From Gordius sp. MW1 (taxonomy: Eukaryota; Nematomorpha; Gordioida; Gordea; Gordiidae): a DNA stretch of 64,000 nt. Made by a program: the position numbers and the translations under genes. Positions 1 to 64,000 of the stretch are shown here, piece after piece. The DNA is taken from contig OZ038530.1 of NCBI GenBank assembly GCA_964036665.1, forward strand, positions 6,276,501 through 6,340,500, written 5' to 3'. Every line of letters starts with the position of its first letter. Position 1 is the first letter of the stretch. The notes beneath the pieces were generated by a model that ran no database searches, was not told the origin of the DNA, and saw only the letters and a list, made by a program, of their open reading frames with translations.

Positions 1-1565
1 TAGTTGGCTGTCTGTTAGACCATCTATAATAAATTTTTAGGTTATATATAAAATTTGGCCAATGGTCATTTTTTTTCATTGGTAAGCAGCCAGGACACGG
101 TAAAAGTGGTTATAAATTCATAAGTCAAAAAAAAACGAAAAAAAAATTTTCGAATCACATTTTGGCCAATGGTCATTTTTTCCATCGGTCAGGAGCCAGC
201 GGACGGCCAAAAAGTCATAATAGCAATGGTAGTAACAGGAACAATCATAATAGTCAAAAAAAACGAAAAAATAAACTCGGATTCACATTTTGGCCAATGG
301 TCATTTTTTTCCATTGGTCAGCAGCCAGCACACGGTAAAAGTGGATATAAATTCACAAGAGTAAAAAAAACGAAAAAAAAATTTTCGAATCACATTTTGG
401 CCAATGGTCATTTTTTTCCATTGGTCAGCAGCCAGCGGACGGCCAAAAAGTCATAATAGCAATGGTAGGAACAGGAACAATCATAATAGTCAAAAAAAAC
501 GAAAAAAATAATTTCGATTCACATTTTGGCCAATGGTCATTTTTTTCCATCGGTCAGGAGCCAGCGGACGGCCAAAAAGTCATAATAGCAATGGTAGTAA
601 CAGGAACAATCATAATAGTCAAAAAAAAACGAAAAAATAAACTCGGATTCACATTTTGGCCAATGGTCATTTTTTTCATTGGTCAGCAGCCAACGGACGG
701 CCAAAAAGTCTTATTATCAATGATAGTAACAAGAACAATCATAAAAGTCAAAAAAAACTCCGGGATTCTAACCCAAAAACTAGTTAAATTGCATAGCAAT
801 TAAAAGTAAACAACTTTTATTTATGTTTATTATATAACATTGGTCAGCAGCCAGCGGACGGCCAAAAAGTCATAATAGCAATGGTAGAAACAGGAACAAT
901 CATAATAGTCAAAAAAAACGAAAAAAATCATTTCGATTCACATTTTGGCCAATGGTCATTTTTTTCATTGGTCAGCAGCCAGCGGACGGCCAAAAATTCT
1001 TATTATCAATGATAGTAACAAGAACAATCATAAGAGTCAAAAAAAACTCCGGGATTCCAACCCCAAAACTAGTTAAATTGCATAGCAATTAAAAAGTAAA
1101 CAACTTTTATTTATGTTTATTTATAACTAGTTAAATTGCATAGCATTAAAAGTAAACAACTTTTATCTATATTTATTATATAACCAAAACTAGTTAAATT
1201 GCATAGCAATTAAAAGTAAACAACTTTTATTAATGTTTATTATATAACTAGTTAAATTGCATAGCAATTAAAAGTAAACAACTTTTATTTATGTTTATTA
1301 TATAATAGATAATTTAACAAATCTTATATATAACACACCGAGAGAGATAGAGATGAGGGGTGGGGCACCTCTTATGCATTAATTCAAAAAATAACACAGC
1401 GAGGGAGATAGAGATGAGGGGTGGGGCACCTCTTTCTCATCCATTAAGTTAAAAAAAGCGATAACCTAATATACCCAATGCAAATAGATAGGGAGGGTAA
1501 CGGACGACGGACGACGGACGACGGACGGACACCAAAAAACGATCCCATAAATTGCATAGCAATTA
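1..1565 (-). mobile_element. HLE-A element, copy 1 (Helentron-like, non-autonomous; cut by window start)
   Basis: This is the first of three long copies of one repeat-rich family. Only the end equivalent to the 5' terminus (read on the minus strand) is present: it closes at 1565 with the ATAAATTGCATAGCAATTA terminal motif. Inside are about six units of a ~120-bp repeat (about 56-770 and 838-1010), about four units of a ~60-bp repeat (about 1065-1305), two GAGATAGAGATGAGG...CACCTCTT boxes and a short run of ACGG/ACGACGG repeats near 1500-1530. The first ~50 bp do not match the other copies, so the left boundary is unknown. I see no coding capacity; open frames across the array are products of the repeat. 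Classification rests on the complete copies at 7658-9427 and 25033-26917. Confidence 0.7.
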
Positions 1566-2507
1566 ATATAAGTCCCCCTTGATTGCTATTTTACTTTGTT
1601 CCTTACTTAAAATGTTTTTAAGAAATATTGATGTTATAATGAATTTGGGGGAATTTTCAAATCGGCACTTTTCCAACCCTCTCAGATTTTATTGAAATTT
1701 AATAATTGTTGATATTATGAATCTTAGCTCATTTGGACCACAACTTTTTAAGGTGGGTGCTAGGTCAAAACTCGTCATTTCGATAAATTTTTTAAGGTAT
1801 TCAGCCACTAATCATAAGATTTGGCTATAATGACAGGTAAGACCTGATCACATATCTATTGGTCATCTAATAATGGCCAAAATGTAATTTCTATCATTTC
1901 CCAGTCCCAAACCTTTTGAAATTTAAAGCAAATGTTTTTTATTTCCTATATAACTATTTAAATAAAAATTCGAGTTGGACTACCATCTGAAAGTGGGCAA
2001 ACAAGGCAAAATATATACTTTTGGTGCCAAAAGGGCCACCCAAAAATCTATAATTGCTATTAAATAGCACTACTACCGCAATCCTTTCCCCACATTCTCC
2101 ACCAATTAAAACAAATCAAGATAGCGAATACCTTTTTTGGGGCAATAATTTTATACTTCTTTAGAAAAAATAGAGTATTCGATGTCACTCTAATTTCGCA
2201 CCATAAAATATTTAATGCACACACAAGAACAGATATAAATCTTTATTGGCAAGTACTTATTTTTGCAGCCTCTTTTTGAAAACCTTGAAATTTTTTATAC
2301 ATTAAATAATTTTGTTGAAATTTTGCAAGATAGTTTTCAATAAATCATCAAAATATTAATAAAAACCAATTTTGTAGCTTATTCGTGACAAAAAAAGTCA
2401 CACGCTTTTTGATTTTATTTGTTTTGATTATAAATTTATAAAGATTGGGAGGGGGAGGGTTGGGTTAGTAGTGCTAATTCGTGACAAAATTATTATCATA
2501 ATGAATA
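1566..2507. other. AT-rich spacer, nothing recognised
   Basis: No coding exon, RNA gene or repeat terminus was recognised here. It is presumably intronic sequence of the Smad2/3 gene whose last exons begin at 3884, because the preceding MH2 exon is not found anywhere to the left in this window. Confidence 0.4.
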
Positions 2508-6240: not shown

Positions 6241-8082
6241 AAGGGCTAAAGGTACAAAGAGTAGCGGCTACTATACAATGGAGAAAACTAAAGGATAATA
6301 TTCAACATTTTCATGAACAAGTAATTGAACATGTTGAATTTAAGGAAAATAATTCATGTGAGGATCAATGGAATGGTATAGCTGCCACAATGCGAAAAGC
6401 GGACGACAAATACTAGTACTAGGTGAAAGCAAGCCCACTAAAAGATCCCAAGGAGACGTGGTGGTGGAATGAAAAAGTGCAAAATTGTATCAAGGAAAAG
6501 AAGTGATTGTACAAAGTTTGGTATAAAAGCAAGGATAGTAATGATAAGCAAGCTTACCAAGTAGCTAAAAGATCGGCTAAAAAATTTGTAGCAAAAAGGA
6601 AGGTGTACGACGATATAAATGTAAACCTAAACTCAAAGGAAGGAGAAAAATAGAACTACAAAATCGCAAAGTTAAGGGCCCGAAATTCTAACGATCACCT
6701 AGAATGCCGGCTAATCAAGGGTCAAAAGGGAGAAATACTAACACACGACAGCCATATACTACAAAGATGGTACGAATATTATAGCGATTTATCAATTGAA
6801 GGGGGGCCTGTATTCGAAGGTATTAACCAGAAAAACACAATAGGAGAATTAAACACAGCGGACTGGATCACGGAAACGGAAGTCAAAGTTGCTATGGGTA
6901 AACTAAAGTCAGAAAAAGCTCTTGGACCAGACAATATACCAAAAGAGGGTTTTAAAGCGTTAGGCAATACTGGTGCAAAATTCCTCGCCAACCTTTTAAA
7001 CAATATCTTGAAGGGTATAATGCCTAAGGAGTGGAGAGATAGCTACATGATCCCTATATACAAGATGAAAGGGGACATTCAGGATTGCAACAATAACAGA
7101 GGGGTAAAACTTATGAGTCACACTTTCAAAATGTGGGAAAAAGTGATCGAAAAGCGGCTTCGGAGTTTGGTTCAAATTCGAGATAACCAATTCGGATTCA
7201 TGCCGGAGAGGTCTACAGCAGACGCTCTAAGCAGTGTTAGAAGATTAATGGAACGGTTTAAAGAAAGGGAAGAGGATTTGCACATGTGTTTCATCGATCT
7301 AGTAAAAGCGTTCGAGAAAGTTCCTCGTACTTATTGTGGAAATGTCTTAAAGATAACAATGTCCCAGAATTACACGTCAGAGCAATAAAAGATATGTATA
7401 CGGGAAATATAACGTACGTTAGAACAACGGTGCAATTAACACTGGAGTCCATCAAGGTTCAGCTCTTAGTCCCTCCTATTTATAATGATAATGGATATTA
7501 TTACCAAGGGTTTGGGCGAGGAAGCTCCTTGGGCAAAGATCTTTGCAGACAATATAATCATCTGTGCCAAAAGTGAACAAGAATTGGCTAATACTATAAA
7601 TAGATGGGTAATGCAATAGAAGAAAGTGGTCTCAGGGTAAATCGAAAGAAAACAGAAAACTCGGGCCTTCGGCCCTCGTGGGATGGGGGAGAAGGGAAGG
7701 GAAGAGGGGAAGGGAAGGGGGGACGACTCATCTGTACTTCGTATAAATGTATCATATTTGCTATGCAATTTATGGGCGAGAAAGGTGGGAAGGGGCGAGA
7801 ATGCCTATAGGGGGGTATTAAATGCCTAATGATTAATTAATTATTTTTACAAATTTTCCATTATAGGCAAAATGTAATATAGGCAAAATGTAATATAGGC
7901 AAGGGTTAGGGTTAGATTTAGTGTTTGCATCTAGTTGCGTATTACATTAGTTTTTATGGCCTTTAGTGATTATGGGTCTGACAAACATTATATTATAAAA
8001 CAACACAATGTTAAGAATTCGCAGAATTGTTGGGAGAAATTTTTTGTTGAATTTGAACAATTTTTAATTAAAAAAATCAAAA

Positions 8083-8760
8083 ATTTGGCCAATGGTCACT
8101 TTTTCTCTATTGGTCAGTACCAACAGATACTCTATAAGTCAATGATAGCCAAAAAAACGGGAAAAAAAATTTTGATGCTCACTTTGGCCAATGGTCATTT
8201 TTTTCCATTGGTCAGCAGCCAGCACACGGTAAAAGTGGATATAAATTCATAAGAGTAAAAAAAACGAAAAAAAAATTTTCGAATCACATTTTGGCCAATG
8301 TTCATTTTTTTCCATTGGTCAGCAGCCAGGACACGGTAAAAGTGGATATAAATTCATAATAGTCAAAAAAAACGAAAAAAAAGTTTTCGAATCACATTTT
8401 GGCCAATGGTCATTTTATTCCATTGGTCAGCAGCCAGCGGACGGCCAAAAAGTCATAAAAGCAATGGTAGGAACAGAAACAATCATAATAGTCAAAAAAA
8501 AACGAAAAAAATAATTTCGATTCACATTTTGGCCAATGGTCATTTTTTCCAGCGGTCAGGAGCCAGCGGACGGCCAAAAAGTCATAATAGCAATGGTAGT
8601 AACAGGAATAATCATAATAGTCAAAAAAAAACGAAAAAATAAACTCGGATTCACATTTTGGCCAATGGTCATTTTTTTCATTGGTCAGCAGCCAACGGAC
8701 GGCCAAAAAGTCTTATTATCAATGATAGTAACAAGAACAATCATAAGAGTCAAAAAAAAC
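8083..8760 (+). repeat. ~120-bp minisatellite with nested palindrome (HLE-A interior)
   Basis: About six units. Each contains TTTTGGCCAATGG, a T-rich loop, CCATTGG, CAGCAGCCAGCGGAC and GGCCAAAA. The CCAATGG/CCATTGG and TTTTGGCC/GGCCAAAA pairs are complementary, so one unit can fold into a two-level hairpin. Units vary in the CAGCGGAC segment, where some carry CAGCACAC or CAGGACAC. The same array recurs at about 56-770, 25438-26110 and 63585-64000. Confidence 0.85.
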
Positions 8761-8774
8761 TCCGGGATTCTAAC

Positions 8775-9185
8775 CCAAAAACTAGTTAAATTGCATAGCA
8801 ATTAAAAGTAAACAACTTTTATTTATGTTTATTATATAACATTGGTCAGCAGCCAGCGAACGGCCAAAAAGTCATAATAGCAATGGTAGAAACAGGAACA
8901 ATCATAATAGTCAAAAAAAAACGAAAAAAATAATTTCGATTCACATTTTGGCCAATGGTCATTTTTTTCATTGGTCAGCCAGCGGACGGCCAAAAATTCT
9001 TATTATCAATGATAGTAACAAGAACAATCATAAGAGTCAAAAAAACTCCGGGATTCTAACCCCAAAACTTGGTAAATTGCATAGCAATAAAAAGTAAACA
9101 ACTTTTATTTATGTTTATTATATAACTAGTTAAATTGCACAGCATTAAAAGTAAACAACTTTTATTTATGTTTATTATATAATAG
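8775..9185 (+). repeat. ~60-bp minisatellite repeating the element's own terminal motif
   Basis: Units read ACTAGTTAAATTGCATAGCA, then ATTAAAAGTAAACAACTTTT, then ATTTATGTTTATTATATA. Each has two hairpin stems, AATTGC/GCAATT and AAAAGT/ACTTTT. The first stem is the same word found at the element's terminal inverted repeat. More units are present at 1065-1305 and 26130-26660, where the array is longer. Confidence 0.85.
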
Positions 9186-10570
9186 ATAATTTAACAAATC
9201 TTATATATAACACACCGAGGGAGATAGAGAGCGGTGGGGCACCTCTTATGCATTAATTTAAAAAATAACACAGCGAGGGAGATAGAGATGAGGGTGGGGC
9301 ACCTCTTTCTCATGCATTAATTTAAAAAAGCGATAACCTAATATACCCAATGCAAATAGATAGGGAGGGTAACGGACGACGGACGGACGGACACCAAAAA
9401 ACGAGCCCATAAATTGCATAGCAATTAATACATGAAGACAAAGTGTAAATCGGATGAAAACCAGCTAAGTGCATCCCTTACCTTAGGGAATTGGCAACTT
9501 ATAAGCGTGGATTCCTTCAAATATTTAGGATCAACACTTCAATCGAATGGTGGAATGGATAAAGAAATCCAAGTAAGGATAAATTCCGGATGGCTCAAGT
9601 GGAGGGACTTGACAGGCGTGCTGTTTGACAATAATATTCCGAGAAGACTAAAAGGCGCACTGTATAAATCCATCATACAGCCAACAGTCCTGTATAGCTC
9701 GGAATCATTGGCTATACGTAAAAGAGAAGAACTGCGTCTTGCGGCCATGGAGACGAGAATGCTAAAATGGATGCTAGGAGTAAGCAAAGGAACCTAGGCG
9801 AAATGAAGAAATAAGAAGAATTTTGGGTACTACATCTATTACGACAAAGCTCCTAACCAATAGACTAAGATGGTATGGCCATGTAAAAAGGGATGATAGC
9901 TACGTTGGAAAGGAAATTGAGATGATAAATTTCGTAGGAAAACGAAGAGAGGAAGACCCAAGCTTACCTGGATTCATAAAATAAGGCACGATATAAAAGT
10001 CCACAAGATAAAGAAAAATCTATGTAAACATAGAAACAAATGGAAACGAATGCTGAAAGGACTGACTACCAGCTTAGGTGACAAACAATCATAGAAAGAA
10101 GAAGTTAAAATCGAGATAAATGTTATTTTTTAATAAAAACAATAACAAGGTGCCCTTTTACTTTGAAAATTGTACCCGATTTAAGATTTTGTTTATGTTT
10201 TTCCTTTTTGTAAATTAAATTCAAAATGTTTTATCAGACTTGTCAGTAGAGTCCTGCATGGGCTGGTTTTTGCCGGCCCAGCCCAACTCAACCCATGTTC
10301 AGGTCGACCCAACCCAACCCAGCCCATGCTCACAAACTTTTTTTAAGCCCAGCCCAACCCATGCCTAACAAAACCCAGCAGAGCCCATCTAAAATATTTT
10401 ATCTTCCTAAATTTAATTCACACTTTACAATGTATAATTAATTATATTTATATTAGACTAGCTGACCCGGCAAACGTTGTTTTGCCCTATTAAAAATATT
10501 TAAAAAATAGAAAATTTAAATAAGAAAAAAACTACCAATTAATATCTATATGTTCTACTTTTATTTTTTA

Positions 10571-25032: not shown

Positions 25033-26917
25033 AACTCGGGCCTTCGGCCCTCGTGGGAAGAGGGGAAGGGAAGGGGGGACGACTCATCTGTACTTCGTAT
25101 AAATGTATCATATTTGCTATGCAATTTATGGGCGAGAAAGGTGGGAAGGGGCGAGAATGCCTATAGGGGGGTATTAAATGCCTAATGATTAATTAATTAT
25201 TTATACAAATTTTCCATTATAGGCAAAATGTAATAAAGGCAAAATGTAATATAGGCAAGGGTTAGGGTTAGATTTAGTGTTTACATCTAGTTGCGTATTA
25301 CATTAGTTTTTATGGCCTTTAGTGATTATGTGTCTAACAAACATTATATTATAAAGCAACACAATGTTAAGAATTTGCAGAATTGTTGGGAGAAATTTTT
25401 TGTTGAATTTGAACAATTTTTAATTAAAAAAATCAAAAATTTGGCCAATGGTCACTTTTTCTCTATTGGTCAGTACCAACAGATACTCTATAAGTCAATG
25501 ATAGCCAAAAAAACGGAAAAAAAATTTTGATGCTCACTTTGGCCAATGGTCATTTTTTTCCATTGGTCAGCAGCCAGCACACGGTAAAAGTGGATATAAA
25601 TTCATAAGAGTAAAAAAAACGGAAAAAAAATTTTCGAATCATATTTTGGCCAATGGTCATTTTTTTCCATTGGTCAGCAGCCAGGACACGGTAAAAGTGG
25701 ATATAAATTCATAATAGTCAAAAAAAAACGAAAGAAAAGTTTTCGAATCACATTTTGGCCAATGGTCATTTTATTCCATTGGTCAGCAGCCAGCGGACGG
25801 CCAAAAAGTCATAATAGCAATGGTAGGAACAGGAACAATCATAATAGTCAAAAAAAAACGAAAAAAATGATTTCGATTCACATTTTGGCCAATGGTCATT
25901 TTTTTAATAGGTCAGGAGCCAGCGGACGGCCAAAAAGTCATAATAGCAATGGTAGTAGAACAATCATAATAGTAAAAAAAAACACGAAAAAATAAACTCG
26001 GATTCACATTTTGGCCAATGGTCATTTTTTTCATTGGTCAGCAGCCATCGGACGGCCAAAAAGTCTGATTATCAATGATAGTAACAAGAACAATCATAAG
26101 AGTCAAAAAAACTCCGGGATTCTAACCCAAAAACTAGTTAAATTGCATAGCAATTAAAAGTAAACAACTTTTATTTATGTTTATTATATAACATTGGTCA
26201 GCAGCCAGCGGACGGCCAAAAAGTCATAATAGCAATGGTAGAAACAGGAACAATCATAATAGTCAAAAAAAACGAAAAAAATAATTTCGATTCACATTTT
26301 GGCCAATGGTCATTTTTTTCATTGGTCAGCAGCCAGCGGACGGCCAAAAATTCTTATTATCAATGATAGTAACAAGAACAATCATAAGAGTCAAAAAAAC
26401 TCCGGGATTCTAACCCCAAAACTAGTTAAATTGCATAGCAATTAAAAAGTAAACAACTTTTATTTATGTTTATTATATAACTAGTTAAATTGCATAGCAT
26501 TAAAAGTAAACAACTTTTATCTATGTTTATTATATAACAAAAACTAGTTAAATTGCATAGCAATTAAAAGTAAACAACTTTTATTTATGTTTATTATATA
26601 ACTAGTTAAATTGCATAGCAATTAAAAGTAAACAACTTTTATTTATGTTTATTATATAATAGATAATTTAACAAATCTTATATATAACACACCGAGAGAG
26701 ATAGAGATGAGGGGTGGGGCACCTCTTATGCATTAATTCAAAAAATAACACAGCGAGGGAGATAGAGATGAGGGGTGGGGCACCTCTTTCTCATCAATTA
26801 ATTTAAAAAAGCGATAACCTAATATACCCAATGCAAATAGATAGGGAGGGTAACGGACAGACAGACGGACAGACGGACGGACAACAAAAAACGAGCCCAT
26901 AAATTGCATAGCAATTA
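25033..26917 (-). mobile_element. HLE-A element, copy 3 (complete, 1885 bp)
   Basis: Same ends as copy 2: minus-strand start TAATTGCTATGC at 26917, internal inverted repeat at 25109-25130, hairpin GGGCCGAAGGCCC and GAGTT at 25033. The flanks again give T on both sides and no duplication. It differs from copy 2 by losing ~20 bp of the G/A-rich tract near the hairpin and by having more ~60-bp units (about five, 26130-26660). A GGGTTAGGGTTAGA spacer is at 25258-25272. Confidence 0.82.
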
Positions 26918-29840: not shown

Positions 29841-30149
29841 CGGAAAAACTCGGGAGCATTGACTAAAAACTGTGATATAATATACATTAAAAGAATATTA
29901 CTTTGGTTATTTGTCTGGATTCTTTAGCAAGCATCCAATAATATTTGAGCACTTCAAGTGAACCTTACATTGATACATTAAATCATTTAAATGATTAACT
30001 TTACTTGATGTAGGAGTAACGTTATCAAGTGTTGATTCAGTCATTATGTTTATTGGCCCTTTATTAAAAATTAAATATATTTGATATATTTTTACTTTGA
30101 AAAAGACATAATATTATTTGAGATATTGTTATCAATTGTCATGGAAGGT

Positions 30150-31120
30150 AGAGAGTCTGGTCTTATAAAAAATATATTCACAATATATTTAAATACTTGA
30201 GAATGTGAGAATAGGTAAGCTTTGGGTAATTGTATGGCTGGTAACAGAGCTGGTCCTATATAAAATATATAATTTACAATATAAATACTTAAATACTTTG
30301 GAATGAGATCATAGGTAAGTTTTGGGCAATTGTATGGTCACAGAGGCTGATCCTATAAAAAATATATAATTTACAATATACTTAAATACTTTGGAATGAG
30401 ATCATAGGTAAGTTTTGGGCAATTATATGGCTGGTCACAGAGGCTGGTCCTATAAAAAATATATAATTCACAATATATTTAAATACTTGAGAATGAGATC
30501 ATAGGTAAGTTTTGGGCAATTGTATGGCTGGTCACAGAGGCTGGTGCTATAAATAATATATAATTCACAATATATTTAAATACTTTGGAATGAGATCATA
30601 GGTAAGTTTTGGGCAATTGTATGGCTGGTCACAGAGGTTGATCCTATAAAAAATATATAATTCACAATATACTTAAATACTTTGGAATGAGATCATAGGT
30701 AAGTGTTGGGCAATTGTTTGGCTGGTCACAGAGGCTAGTCCTATAAAAAATATATAATTCACAATATATTTAAATACTTGAGAATGAGATCATAGGTAAG
30801 TTTTGGGCAATTGTATGGCTGGTCACATAGGCTGGTCCTATAAATAATATATAACTCACAATGTATTTAAATACTTTGGAATGAGATCATAGGTAAGTTT
30901 TGGGCAATTGTATGGCTGGTCACAGAGGCTGGTCCTATAAATAATATATAATTCACAATATATTTAAATACTATGCAATGTGAGAATAGTAAGATTTGGG
31001 CAATTGTATGGCTGGTCACAGAGGCTGGCCCTATAAAAAATACATAATTCACAATATATTTAAATACTTGAGAATGAGATCAAAGGTAAGTTTTGGGCAA
31101 TTGTATGGCTGGCCACAGAG
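30150..31120. repeat. ~96-bp minisatellite, about ten units, each with a splice-donor-like site
   Basis: Each unit contains GAATGAGATCATAG, then GTAAGTTTTGGGCAATTGTA, TGGCTGGTCACAGAGGC and CTATAAAAAATATATAATTC. Phase marks (GTAAG) occur at about 30212, 30316, 30408, 30504, 30601, 30699, 30796, 30892, 30989 and 31085. Central units are nearly identical and outer ones diverge. The array runs into the frame of the FLYWCH-like ORF at its right end. Confidence 0.9.
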
Positions 31121-31344
31121 GCTGTTCCTTTAGATGGGGGTGTTGATGCTGATAAAGAGCATTTACTTAAATCATGTTTACTTGTAAAGGAAAAGGAACC
31201 ATTTGACATAGTTCCTTTTCCCTTACAATTGTAATTTATACATTTATAATATACTTTATGCTCAGTCTCATTAACTTGAGCATATTCATGATTATTATAA
31301 ATTAAGATTCTTTTTTTCTGCCTTGAGAGTTTCCAGGAGATCAT
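31060..31344 (-). CDS. Small ORF with FLYWCH-like zinc finger (transposon-derived)
   Basis: 94 codons starting with ATG at 31344. Residues 12-60 read LIYNNHEYAQVNETEHKVYY, KCINYNCKGKGTM and a final KHDLSKC: the tyrosine/cysteine spacing resembles a FLYWCH finger, a DNA-binding domain often found before MULE transposases. The last ~25 residues (ASVASHTIAQNLPLISFSS) come from the first unit of the neighbouring minisatellite. It may be the displaced N-terminus of the MULE gene at 28374-29840, or a second copy. There is no evidence that it is an independent host gene. Confidence 0.45.
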   Translation of the reverse strand: MISWKLSRQKKRILIYNNHEYAQVNETEHKVYYKCINYNCKGKGTMSNGSFSFTSKHDLSKCSLSASTPPSKGTASVASHTIAQNLPLISFSSI

Positions 31345-36020: not shown

Positions 36021-38010
36021 GGTAAATGTCAAAATCTATGTTTATGATGCGATTTAAATTTTTTTTTGAAATTGTGACTCACTAAGAGCTTAAAAAATGT
36101 TTTTCATTTTTGAAATTAAGATTTTTAAAAGTTTAGCGGTCGTCCAGGTGACAAATGTCATAATCTATGTTTATGATGCGATTTAAATTTTTTTTTCAAA
36201 TTGTGACTCACTAAGAACTTAAAAAATGTTTTTCACCTTTGAAATTAAGATTTTTAAAAGTTTAGCGGTCGCCCAGGTGACAAATGTCATAATCTATGTT
36301 TATGATGCGATTTAAATTTTTTTTTCAAATTCTGACCCACTGAGAGCTTAAAAAATGTTTTTCACCTTTGAAATTAAGATTTTTAAATGTTTAGCGGTCG
36401 CCCAGGTGACAAATGTCATAATCTATGTTTATGATGCGATTTAAATTTTTTTTCAAATTCTGACTCACTGAGAGCTTAAAAAATGTTTTTCACCTTTGAA
36501 ATTAAGATTTTTAAAAGTTTAGCGGTCGCCCCGGTGACAAATGTCATAATCTATGTTTATGATGCGATTTAAATTTTTTTTTGAAATTGTGACTCACTAA
36601 GAGCTTAAAAAATGTTTTTCACCTTTGAAATTAAGATTTTTGAAAGTTTAGCGGTCGCCCAGGTGACAAATGTCATAATCTATGTTTATTATGCGATTTA
36701 AATTTTTTTTGAAATTGTGACTCACTAAGAGCTTAAAAAATGTTTTTTACCTTTGAAAATATGATTTTTAAAAGTTTACCGGTCGTCCAGGTGACAAATG
36801 TCATAATCTATGTTTATGATGCGATTTAAATTTTTTTTTCAAATTGTGACTCACTAAGAACTTAAAAAATGTTTTTCACCTTTGAAATTAAGATTTTTAA
36901 AAGTTTAGCGGTCGCCCAGGTGACAAATGTCATAATCTATGTTTATGATGCGATTTAAATTTTTTTTTCAAATTGTGACTCACTAAGAACTTAAAAAATG
37001 TTTTTCACCTTTGAAATTAAGATTTTTAAAAGTTTAGCGGTTGCTCAGGTGACAAATGTCATAATCTATGTTTATGATGCGATTTACATTTTTTTTTCAA
37101 ATTGTGACTCACTAAGAGCTTAAAAAATGTTTTTCACCTTGGAAATTAAGATTTTTGAAAGTCTAGCGGTCACCCAGGTGACAAATGTCATAATCTACAT
37201 TTATGATGCGATTTAAATTTTTTTTTCAAATTGTGACTCACTAAGCGCTTAAAAAATGTTTTTCACCTTTGAAATTAAGATTTTTGAAAGTTTAGCGGTC
37301 GCCCAGGTGACAAATGTCATAATCTACATATATGATGCGATTTAAATTTTTTTTCCAAATTGTGACTCACTAAGAGCTTAAAAAATGTTTTTCACCTTTG
37401 AAATTAAGATTTTTGAAGTTTAGCGGTCGCCCAGGTGACAAATGTCATAATCTTCATTTATGATGCGATTTAAATTTTTTTTTCAAATTGTGACTCACTA
37501 GGAGCTTAAAAAATGTTTTTCACCTTTGAAATTAAGATTTTTGAAAGTTTAGCGGTCGCTCAGGTGACAAATGTCATAATCTTCATTTATGATGCGATTC
37601 AAATTTTTTTTTCAAATTGTGACTCACTAAGAGCTTATAAAATGTTTTTCATCTTTTAAATTAAGATTTTTGAAAGTTTAGCGGTCGCCCAGGTGACAAA
37701 TGTCATAATCTATGTTTATTATGGGATTTAAATTTTTTTTTCAAATTGTGACTCACTAAGAGCTTATAAAATGTTTTTCAACTTTGTAATTAAGATTTTT
37801 GAAAGTTTAGCGGTCGCCCAGGTGACAAATGTCATAATCTACATTTATGATGCGATTTAAATTTTTTTTTCAAATTGTGACTCACTAAGAGCTTAAAAAA
37901 TGTTTTTCACCTTTGAAATTAAGATTTTTGAAAGTTTAGCGGTCGCCCAGGTGACAAATGTCATAATATATGTTTATGATGCGATTTAAATTTTTTTTTC
38001 AAATTGTGAC
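36021..38010. repeat. ~130-bp satellite-like tandem array (about 15 units)
   Basis: Units contain GTTTAGCGGTCGCCCAGG, then TGACAAATGTCATAATCTA, TTTATGATGCGATTTAAA, a T run, AAATTGTGACTCACTAAG and TTAAAAAATGTTTTTCACC. Internal units differ by a few bases. The dyad TGACAAATGTCA is present in nearly every unit. The array runs directly into a hAT-type terminus at 38011-38024. Confidence 0.93.
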
Positions 38011-57289: not shown

Positions 57290-60200
57290 TTAGAGGCTTC
57301 CCTCGGGGGGACCGGTAATAGTAAAGACTGGACGATGATAGCTAAAGTAGCTGATATAAGATTTGCTAACTAAGGGTATGGTGTTGCGAGCGAAAACACC
57401 ATCAAGACATGCGCCACCCCTTGTAGTCGGAGTCTTCGGCGAATGCAATCGCAGGTCAAACGTTGATTCCATGAAATTAAAAATTCTTTCATTAGCTATA
57501 TCGCTAAAATCGACATTAAAATCTCTGGATAATATAAAAGGTATATTGAGATATCCGCGGGTGCACGTATCAGTTGTTACCCCGGGTACACGAGCGGTGT
57601 ATGGCAATAAATAGGCTTCGAAAGCGCGAATATTTGCGTGCTACTGTGAGAAACATACACCGTTATCAATAAAACCCGTTCCCCTTGGATCGTGCGTTCT
57701 ATGGCACATATGTCCCCGCACAAAGCACTTGTGTCCAAACTTGGGTCTAGCGTTTGTGTGTTCCTGTTGTACTTAAGCAGTTCGTGGGGCGTATATGCCA
57801 GAGTACAACCGTTTTTCGCATAAATAGCAACACCACCAGCCCGTATTGTGGACCGTTTAAATTGTTTACTACACGTATAGTTGGGTAGGTCGACATGGTC
57901 GTGATCGTCAAGCCAGGTTTCGCAAAACGCCAGAATATTAGCCGTCAGAAGCAAAGGCCGCACCTTGACATCTTCCTGATGACGTTTTAAACTCAGTACG
58001 TTGAAAGTTAAGAGCGATAAATCCTCGACACCGATAGGGGCTAAGAAAGTGGCGCATTCATCGGATAGCAAGTGCAAAGGGTTGGTTTCTAATCTGGCTA
58101 TTCCGGCCATTAAGACAGTATTAGGTTTACCGCGTGCGTGGTAAAATTCGTGATCGTCAAACACGTTAGTCATGGTTAAACCAGCGAGACTCGTAGCACG
58201 CGAGAGCGCAACGTAAACTAGCTGATGCTCGTGGCTCCTATTGTAATCGTGGATAACCCTGTCGTACGAACTATCTTGCGCTTTGTGTACAGTAATTGCG
58301 CTAGCTTCGACCAAGGGAAATTGAGTTCGTTTACAGCGCACAGTACTCTTTAAATTAATATGAGCGGTTCGTTGAAGTATCGGCACCCATGATTTTTGTA
58401 AATATGGATGCTCCTTAATATATGGGCCGTACTTGATGTTAGCTATTAAGCCAACACGAGATTTGGGAGGAAATTGAAGCCAAAGTTTAATTACATTATT
58501 ATCATCTATCTGACGTATCAATGTATTGTAAAGTCCCGACGTGCCATTAACAAGACCGTCTTTCACATCTACATTAGTGCGTATCATGTACGGTTTATTT
58601 AGCAGTAATATAAGAGAGCTCGGGAGAGCAGCCGTTTCGTCTAATTTCATTCTGGCGACTTTATGTTTGGCACTCTCCGATTAAGACGCACTTGTATGCC
58701 CGGAGTAAACATCAAGGGCTTGGTGTACCATTCCACCTGCAAACGCGCTCCGATTAAACCTATCAACGTCTGCAGCCATGTAAAAAATCCTTATGGCCGT
58801 ATCAGCAAGGGATAAAGCATTGTTAGCAACGAATCGACTTTCAATAAGGTTTTTTTCCTCTAAATTTAAGGCCTGCCGCCTGCCCGTCCCCCACTTTTAT
58901 TAGGATATCGAAGAAGGTTTTTTCTGTTTGACGCAAAATATCCGTAAGCGGATAATAAGCCAAAGAGCGCCAGAAAGGTGGACCTATAAGGGTATGGCGT
59001 GGGTGCTTATAAATCGGAGTTTGTCTAACAGGTGGCAGTTGCCGTAAATCGCCACAACAATATTCATTCCACCAAAGAGTGTATCATAGTTAGGGTGAAT
59101 TGCTGTAGTCTAGCATTAATTTTAGTTAACATGTCTGCACCTATCATACTTATTTCATCGATGAATACCGTGTCTATACCGCGGAAAACGACGCGAAGCG
59201 AATTTAGCGATTCTCTAGAGATATGGTCAGCAACGCTTGCAGTTACTTGCTTAATGCCGAAGGCAGAGTGGACGGTAACACCATCTATTGCACTTGCAGC
59301 CATACCGGTGGAAGCCGCTGATAGAAACGCATTATAACCAGCAACACCTTCCGAGTAACGATTACATGATTCCATCAGCAGTTTGAGGGTAAAGGTTTTT
59401 CCACTACCTGCTGGTCCGGTAAGGAAAATCTGATGGGGTCACTATTGCCTCCAGGCCACTTCCGATGTATGAACTCTTCGACCAAAGACAACTGACGCCC
59501 GGTAGCACGGCGAACTTGTGAACAATATTCTTCGTGGGTAAGTATGTTAGCACGTTTTTGAATGATCGCTGTGTTTTGCAGAGCAAATTTACGAATGTCA
59601 TAAGTATCAGCGACTGCCAACATGGCTACCATCGCTGTATCATCATCAATTCTAGTGCGCTCCCGGTCGGGCTGTTCGTTAGGGAATTCGTCTATACAGG
59701 CGACGACATTCGGACATGGTTAGTTCTATATCAACGTCTGATACGTAACGTTTTCGAGCCTCAAAAATTTCGCGCTCGTGCGAGTCGTAAATTGCAAATT
59801 TGTCGTTGTTTAATAGATCTACGCGTTCGTTACGGAATGGTATCTACAAAAGCGTCATTTCTCGTTTGTAGTCCGTAAGCTCGTTTAGATTATAGCGTCT
59901 GTAGCGTATAATTTTAGGAAGTTTCCGTTTAACATATTCGCCATTTTGACGAACATAGTAGTGCCACAAAATCAGCTAGACAAACGCTGGTAAGAGCATC
60001 GGGTCGTTGCGTTTATCGATCGAATAAACTGTCTTGCCAAATATTTGTGGCTTCTGGATCAAGATATTCGGTATCCATTTGGGACTGACTCTTTACCACA
60101 CGTTGCCTATCGTGTGCCAAACCGTGGGTATGTAAACTATCTTACGGCTCGAGGCCGACATGCCTAACCGCAACAAATACCATGCTGCTTCTTGGCTACT

Positions 60201-60410
60201 CATTTAAATTGCGTTAAGTGTGCGAGTTCCCAGTTCACGCATGCAATCAAAAAAATCTTGATCGGGATACTCTTCTCGCAATTTTATTAAATCTCTATGA
60301 AGGGAGCTAAGGCCATGCTCGGCTTTGTTCACGTATTCGGCGATGTACGCTGGTACACGAATATTCATCGAGGATAAATTGTATATCCATGTTAGATTTA
60401 AGAGTCATCG
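57290..60410 (-). pseudogene. Helentron helicase plus AP-endonuclease (broken, N-terminus missing)
   Basis: Order on the minus strand: Rep-to-helicase linker (60400-60130: EYVNKAEHGLSSLHRDLIKL, FDCMRELGTRTLNAI, SSQEAAWYLLRLGMSASSRK); KRKLPKIIRYRRYNL and EIFEARKRYVSDVDIELTM (59930-59690); helicase motif I, FLTGPAGSGKTFTL, near 59420-59390; DTVFIDEISMIGADML (motif II, 59375-59064); an out-of-frame middle; motifs V/VI AITVHKAQDSSYDRVI and QLVYVALSRATSLAGL (58650-58100). An endonuclease domain follows: LLTFNVLSLKRHQED, ILAFCETWLDD, AGGVAIYAKNG (58000-57577), then IPFILSRDFNVDFSDI and LHSPKTPTTRGGACLDGVFA (57607-57290). A PIF1-like SF1 helicase fused to an APE-type endonuclease is the hallmark of Helentrons. 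Stops and frameshifts are present and the HUH Rep domain is absent. Confidence 0.88.
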
Positions 60411-62467: not shown

Positions 62468-63580
62468 TAATTACGTGTAAATAATATTTAACTTGAATAT
62501 AAGGGAACTGGGTATATATAATTATTATAGCGTTGTAGGATAAGGGGATGAAATTGAATATAAGGGAATTGGGTAAATAAATATATTGTAAGGGATAAAA
62601 AAATATCTGTTCATAGAGGATGGCATGCAGGCATAGACATGTGGGGTGGGAAGTTTGCAATAATAACAACATTAAAGAATACAGTGTAGATAGGGACCTG
62701 CAAATAAATTATTTATCTCGCTTGCAGCATGTGGGGTGACACCCCAACACAACCCTAGAACGCCTCATGCCTGCTGAAATTAACTCTTCCCCTCCTAAAT
62801 TTATTTACTTGTTAGCAATAGCATGCGCGAGATTGAATCAGGGAAGGCGTGCGTGCGGTGCGTGCGTGGGTGGGTAAAATTCTTGCAATGCACGATAGCG
62901 CTTCTACTTAATGTTGTTGCTTAATAAAAATCTAAGGAGGGAAAGAATCAATTTAATTTTTTAAATTTTCTAAATGAATAAACTTATTAAAAAATGTTTT
63001 TTCCCCACAACCACAAGTATGAAATTTCTATATTTCATGTAAAATAAACTTAGGGTGATTTTTAATACTTTACAATTTTTAAATACATTAATCTAAATAA
63101 AAAAAAATTAGAGTATTTATTATTTAATATATTGAGAAATTATTATTAATAAATAAATTGCGTTTTGATAGCATGCTGGATATTTTATATAAAAATTTAA
63201 CGATTAACGTATTTATGTGAGATGCCTAGAAAAGTTTCTAATTTTGTTTAAAATTTGCGAAAAATAAATGCATCGTCAACTATATGGTAAAACAGTGGCG
63301 TAAATGGGGGGGGGGAATTTCCCCCTGTTTGTTGATTAAAATTAAAATGGTTAAAATATTATCGTTAAGTTACATCAAAGACTTTAAAGCAGTTATTTAA
63401 ACTTTATAAATACATGTAATTTTTTTGATTACATTTTTGACAAAATGCGAATTTTAATTTTTGAAAAAATTTTTAGTTATGCCTTATGGAAAAATACATA
63501 TATGGTTTAAATTTTAATTTAATGTCATTATTATTTTAAAAAATAATTAGAAAGATACTTTAAAACAATCTGAACAATAA
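62468..63580. other. AT-rich spacer
   Basis: 62840-62875 is a GCGTGCGTGCGG/GTGGGTGGG patch. 63293-63330 is a CAGTGGCGTAAATGGGGGG end of the 27009 MITE family with no partner. No gene seen. Confidence 0.35.
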
Positions 63581-63584
63581 TCAT

Positions 63585-64000
63585 TTTTTTCAATGGTCAG
63601 TAGCCAGGACACGGTCAAAAAGGATGTAAATACATAATAAACGAGAAAAATTTCAAATCACAATTTGGCCAATGGTCATTTTTTTTATTGGTCAGTACCA
63701 AGAGACGGTCTATAAATACATAAAGGTCCAAAAAAACGAGAGAAAAAAATTCGATTTACACTTTGGTCATTGGTCATTTTTTTCCATTGGTCCGTAGAGC
63801 GGACGGCCAAAAAGTCATATTATCAATAGTATTATCAAAAACAATATATTAATTTAAAAAAAATGAAGAAAAAAAATTTCGAATCACAATTTGGCCAATG
63901 GTCATTTTTTCATTGGTCAGTAGCCAGCGGACAGCCAAAAATTCATCTTATCAATGGTACTAACAAGATCAATATATTAATTTAATTAAAAAAAATAAAA
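63585..64000 (+). repeat. Fourth ~120-bp HLE-A-type array (diverged, runs off the window)
   Basis: Four units of TTTGGCCAATGGTCATTTTT...CATTGGTCAGTAGCCAG with more substitutions than in the other copies. The CCAATGG/CCATTGG stem is kept in most. Neither HLE-A terminus is inside the window. Confidence 0.75.

Follow-up and report, generated by a model that had tools for sequence, protein, structure and literature searches.

The repeat family HLE-A was identified as a non-autonomous Helentron (HINE), an assignment to which we give a probability of approximately 0.93. It has recurring ends of defined geometry, a preferred insertion site, no target duplication of fixed length and a high copy number, and the Helentron-like identity proposed in a preliminary description of this DNA passed the tests of end geometry and insertion. 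In the window (the whole 64,000-nucleotide stretch analysed, C4:6276501-6340500 within a 212-Mb assembly of 12 contigs) HLE-A is oriented on the minus strand and is represented as follows:

7657..9427, minus strand: HLE-A copy A, complete; both end patterns with 0 mismatches, 5' end at 9427 and 3' end at 7657, these coordinates being uncertain by 1-2 bases in the assignment of T's
25033..26917, minus strand: HLE-A copy B, complete; end patterns with 0 mismatches
50..1566, minus strand: HLE-A copy C, without its 3' part; alignment to copy A begins at 50, and the 5' end pattern has 1 mismatch
63575..64000, minus strand: diverged array D, related to the long-unit repeat; 77% identity to copy A over 456 columns, D being cut by the window edge

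Copies A and B are 96% identical across their longest shared block (pairwise alignment, 1,532 columns) and have the same order of parts, with a greater number of intact 58-bp units in copy B. In copy C the region equivalent to 7657-8079 of copy A (approximately 420 bp, the Helentron 3' end) is absent. The extents first proposed for the two complete copies (7658-9427 and 25033-26917) were confirmed almost to the base, with both ends matched, and the array placed at 63585-64000 is indeed a diverged relative of the long-unit array; the truncated copy, placed at 1-1565, is real, but it starts at approximately 50 rather than 1 and its 3' part is missing.

Along the minus strand the 5' terminus TAATTGCTATGCAATTTATGGGCTCGTT is followed by a GTCC microsatellite, a two-copy repeat, 58-bp units and 107/129-bp units, and then by a unique stretch of approximately 420-490 bp leading to the 3' terminus CCCACGAGGGCCGAAGGCCCGAGTTT (window position 7657). 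In copy A the parts are:

9400..9427, minus strand: 5' terminus with the palindromic inverted repeat TAATTGCTATGCAATTTATGGGCTCGTT; 9,928 genome matches with up to 3 mismatches
9373..9392, minus strand: (GTCC/GTCY)n microsatellite, by direct reading; found at the starts of 11 of 11 complete copies
9207..9329, minus strand: two-copy tandem repeat close to the 5' end (TRF)
9066..9189, minus strand: 58-bp-unit tandem array (TRF); units diverged in copy A, four intact in copy B
8780..8838, minus strand: single 58-bp unit among the long units, by sequence reading; it holds TTTTAATTGCTATGCAATTTA, an exact copy of the HLE-A 5' terminus
8151..8759, minus strand: long-unit tandem array with units of approximately 107 and 129 bp (TRF)
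7758..7777, minus strand: inner (3') copy of the inverted repeat, matching 9405-9424 at 20 of 20 positions
7660..7678, minus strand: 3' terminal hairpin CGAGGGCCGAAGGCCCGAG, inside a 24-mer with 4,980 genome matches with up to 3 mismatches

HINEs, as described by Thomas and co-workers, have palindromic subterminal repeats, a 3' palindrome, TT insertion and a variable number of T's (PMC4067079). In HLE-A the inverted repeat is terminal at the 5' end and internal at the 3' end, as had been claimed, the two copies forming a perfect 20-bp pair (9405-9424 and 7758-7777) with the inner one approximately 100 bp inside the 3' end. The short 3' palindrome is GGGCC-GAA-GGCCC, with a 5-bp stem; thus the sequence of the GC hairpin reported before the 3' end is there, but its predicted DNA fold (5-bp stem, −5.2 kcal/mol, z −1.4) is not clearly above that of shuffled sequences, 19 of 200 of which were as good. 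A GTCY-type microsatellite is present in the left module of all 11 complete copies, and the segment initially called 'ACGG-rich' is this (GTCC)n microsatellite on HLE-A's own strand, while the 'telomere-like' segment comes down to GGGTTAGGGTTAG at 7903-7915 and nothing beyond that.

The ends are fixed across copies, as proposed, their patterns recurring by thousands in the 212-Mb assembly: with up to 3 mismatches, 2,501+2,479 = 4,980 matches were obtained for the 3' end 24-mer and 4,970+4,958 = 9,928 for the 5' end 28-mer, so that 5' ends are approximately twice as numerous as 3' ends, and the two patterns read backwards gave 0+0 matches each. In C1:0.13-5.06 Mb, for 39 of 100 exact 3' ends a correctly arranged exact 5' end lay no more than 4 kb away (median length, 1,857 bp), as opposed to 10 of 100 when pairing in the wrong geometry was counted in the same region. 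Of 63 exact 5' ends in C1:0.07-4.85 Mb, 27 were closest partner to none of the exact 3' ends listed, and some 5' ends were clustered. Clusters in one orientation, with 5' ends 29 to about 480 bp apart, were seen at L031, L029 and C1:4058428/4058457, and such clustering suggests tandem copies without a 3' part. At L024 (approximately 1571-1624), a diverged HLE 3' end, a few T's and an HLE 5' end follow one another head-to-tail, a junction that reflects either an adjacent insertion or a rolling-circle tandem.

The insertion site was read from 48 distinct 5' junctions and 49 distinct 3' junctions. The former have the form T-(A, T or G)-T|TAATTGC, with T at the junction in 48 of 48 and two bases further out in 46 of 48; in the latter, CGAG is followed by T at positions 1-4 in 49, 47, 44 and 41 of 49, and then by mixed bases. 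The target is TWT|T, in line with the insertion between T's that had been claimed. The T-run on the left is exactly 2 long in 33 of 48 junctions and that on the right is at least 4 long in 38 of 49, so the T's do not form a symmetric duplication; since the right run is shorter than 4 in the other 11 of 49, the number of 3' T's varies. When the flanks of the 11 copies available with both sides were compared, no target duplication of fixed length was found, again as expected from the preliminary description: the longest identical flank words were 2-8 bases long, against 2-11 in 110 shuffled pairs, and words of 7-8 bases occurred in 2 of 11 copies, both AT-rich and of low complexity, against 2 of 110 shuffled pairs with words of at least 7.

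These data also bear on the possibility, which we consider very improbable, that HLE-A is a MITE-like element moved by cut-and-paste by a DDE transposase. It has inverted repeats, coding capacity was not seen, and comparable elements carried MITE annotations in earlier work (PMC4067079); however, at the 3' side of HLE-A the inverted repeat lies inside the end rather than at it, and none of the 11 copies points to a target duplication of fixed length.

Two sites give a view of the DNA before insertion. At L004/L012 one HLE-A is nested inside the 58-bp array of another, and the uninterrupted unit reads CAAC-TTTT-ATTTATG at this position in 156 of 156 matches (124 distinct contexts), so that it serves as an empty site; the filled site has four T's on either side and no further duplicated base. 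Taken by itself, this nested site could be read as a TTTT duplication, the T's being ambiguous there. The second site is that of copy A, which lies within a reverse-transcriptase gene: the frame 6654-7388 immediately upstream matches RVT_1 (4.4e-10). Across copy A the reverse-transcriptase frame GLRVNRKKTEYM is continuous given 2 (or 5) A's before insertion, and with two A's the four T's were brought by copy A. Both sites fit an element TAATTGC...CGAGTTT placed between T and T and, most simply, approximately four T's were brought at each, one at the 5' end and three at the 3' end. The joined flanks of the 11 copies, searched within the retrieved locus DNA, yielded no empty sites. L062, where by eye a Pif1-like helicase gene seemed to be interrupted by an insertion, was set aside, as it was without confirmation by family search.

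That HLE-A is a dispersed satellite, spread by recombination or extrachromosomal circles with its edges kept by chance, is even less credible. Tandem repeats of variable array size make up 23-66% of the 11 complete copies with both flanks (TRF; length, 1,260-1,884 bp), as such a satellite would have it, but both edges recur thousands of times and fall at one fixed base across 48 and 49 different flanks, and a reverse-transcriptase gene is interrupted by copy A. The least probable alternative, a canonical Helitron (5' TC, 3' CTRR, A|T insertion), shares the 3' palindrome and the lack of duplication and can be practically dismissed, the ends of HLE-A being TAATTG and CGAGTTT, not TC and CTRR, and its insertion T|T.

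For a non-autonomous Helentron, Helentron biology allows inferences on the enzyme, on strand transfer and on what the hairpin does. By this analogy, a Helentron Rep-helicase-endonuclease acting in trans would nick at the palindromic 5' terminus, the nicked strand would be peeled off up to a stop at the 3' hairpin, and the copy would be joined between two T's of a TWT|T site, leaving no target duplication.

Recent spread, as suggested initially, was supported within samples selected for an exact end match or for similarity to copy A. Among 32 3' regions (30 loci picked by the exact 24-mer, plus copies A and B), 24 are within 2.5% of the consensus, and the remaining 8, which differ by 19-38%, are subfamilies, truncations or nested elements. 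Among 5' regions, sampled as the 30 best matches to copy A plus copies A, B and C, 26 of 33 rows are within 2.4% of the consensus, these rows corresponding to 32 distinct copies in that L019 is copy A again. Because both samples favour young copies, they demonstrate that many young copies exist but not what share of the family they represent. In L043, L048, L050 and L067 only the last 200 bp or so are common with HLE-A, the divergence from the consensus being approximately 30% over the last 430 bp, and these are probably other subfamilies.

An autonomous copy with HLE-A ends was not found in what was a thin search. Rep-domain genes do exist in the assembly, where 714 candidates for Helitron_like_N (Pfam PF14214) included 150 scored matches; the 3 Rep-domain matches listed on C1:0-5.06 Mb had no matching exact-end pair nearby when the lists were compared by eye. 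The window itself contains one related gene:

57293..60404, minus strand: decayed Helentron gene, with a Pif1 helicase followed by an endonuclease-like domain (Pfam), in several broken frames

In this gene PIF1 was scored at 4.5e-13, UvrD_C_2 at 5.4e-7 and Exo_endo_phos at 0.0027, under the Pfam cut-off; an end scan of the window revealed no HLE-A ends near it, and the Helentron frames of the window had 0 matches in 68 loci (tblastn, 1e-5). Candidates with little of the HLE-A interior were drawn from the 30 loci picked by exact 3' end, and three were rejected: L047 and L055, with frames of 170 and 236 aa and 0 Pfam matches at 0.01, and L056, with no frame longer than 89 aa.

The kind and order of the parts of HLE-A fit those of published HINEs, with differences in distances and unit lengths. 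Among the latter, Vojvoda Zeljko and co-workers described eleven in oyster, several with a GTCY-type microsatellite, their tandem arrays being single or, in exceptional cases, two in succession (PMC7492417). HLE-A resembles Cg_HINE of Crassostrea gigas in its left module with an inverted repeat and GTCY/GTCC microsatellite, its tandem array(s), its right module with an inner repeat and 3' palindrome, and its TT or T-rich insertion with no duplication, no partner being identified in either case (PMC7492417, in the passages on this family). In contrast, in the left module of Cg_HINE the subTIR is accompanied by a distinct short complementary repeat, where in HLE-A the repeat itself is palindromic, and Cg_HINE units are mostly 140-180 bp long versus 58 and approximately 107/129 bp. 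A unit that reproduces the 5' terminus of its own element, as the 58-bp unit does in HLE-A, is not among the features of Cg_HINE in the descriptive passages of PMC7492417. With respect to HINE-Mo, HINE-Cq and DINE-1, the inner 3' repeat of HLE-A is farther from the end (approximately 100 bp versus approximately 38-60 bp), and, unlike them, HLE-A is without a demonstrated autonomous partner (PMC4067079). The interior had been considered elaborate for a non-autonomous element, a view that does not hold, since filling by tandem repeats is a described HINE trait (PMC4067079; PMC7492417) and amounts to approximately half of some HINE copies (PMC4067079); thus, the interior of HLE-A is not new. A literature search, with subscription papers mostly outside its reach, found no published account of the family. 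HLE-A adds to a known class a very abundant family with many young copies, approximately 5,000 by 3' ends, for which the TWT|T target has been measured and in which a satellite unit duplicates the 5' end of the element.

Eighteen bases of the 58-bp unit, TTTTAATTGCTATGCAATTTA, match the HLE-A 5' end, as compared with a maximum of 13 in 500 shuffles, and from its letters this segment could be derived from the 5' terminus. A survey in which 127 palindromes were classed assigned 57 to the array, 49 to the 5' terminus, 16 to the inner 3' repeat and 5 to other contexts. None of these 5 was a clear insertion starting within the array, and no clear use of the TTTTAATTGCTATGCAATTTA of the 58-bp unit as an alternative start was seen among the 127, L042 being a suggestive hybrid. 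The tandem arrays of HLE-A are most simply regarded as passenger repeats amplified within the element. Two further tandem arrays in the window, 36024-38010 (129 bp x 15.4, 95% matches) and 30133-31129 (97 bp x 10.3), lack HINE ends in their 300-bp flanks, as judged by eye.

The 3' hairpin of HLE-A (7661-7678) is identical over 18 contiguous bases to the 19-bp box of the CenH3-associated tandem repeats of Meloidogyne incognita, the original paper on the box being Despot-Slade 2021. The resemblance emerged from a literature text search with six 15-17-mers of HLE-A, in which GGGCCTTCGGCCC was found printed only in PMC10630426, the source of the letters of the box, and the 11-mer CGGGCCTTCGG in two further papers. 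The box is a centromere motif of tandem repeats, not a reported transposon end, and its relation to HLE-A is unproven; the literature passages dealing with it contained no link to Helentrons. It is common to five divergent repeat families (PMC9673304), which could be what HINE families sharing one end look like; recognition by a single Rep-helicase would then be the reason that the end alone is shared. A parallel might be seen in Rhynchospora, where some Tyba holocentromere repeats have been linked to Helitron (PMC10048060). We regard it as unlikely, on balance, that the Meloidogyne box is a Helentron 3'-end hairpin, with holocentromere repeats seeded by HINE families of which HLE-A would be a living counterpart; were the likeness due to homology, a holocentromere repeat motif would gain a concrete and testable origin.

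As an alternative, convergence has to be taken seriously. The HLE-A 19-mer CGAGGGCCGAAGGCCCGAG was found in 15 IMG/VR stretches (L069-L083), which by eye represent approximately 9 separate and unrelated viral contexts, and the Meloidogyne box in 4 stretches, all within those 15; in the same collection the 19-mer read backwards gave 0 matches, as did each of two 19-mers with the same stem and rearranged outer bases, all three controls having the composition of the 19-mer. The motif arises repeatedly, which weakens the case for homology with the Meloidogyne box, and the hairpin seems to be favoured for its own sake, so that a convergent origin is likely. Both of its arms read CGAG, so that, judging from the letters, tandem G.A pairs could form below the stem, with a GAA loop above it, and hairpins with these two features can be unusually stable.
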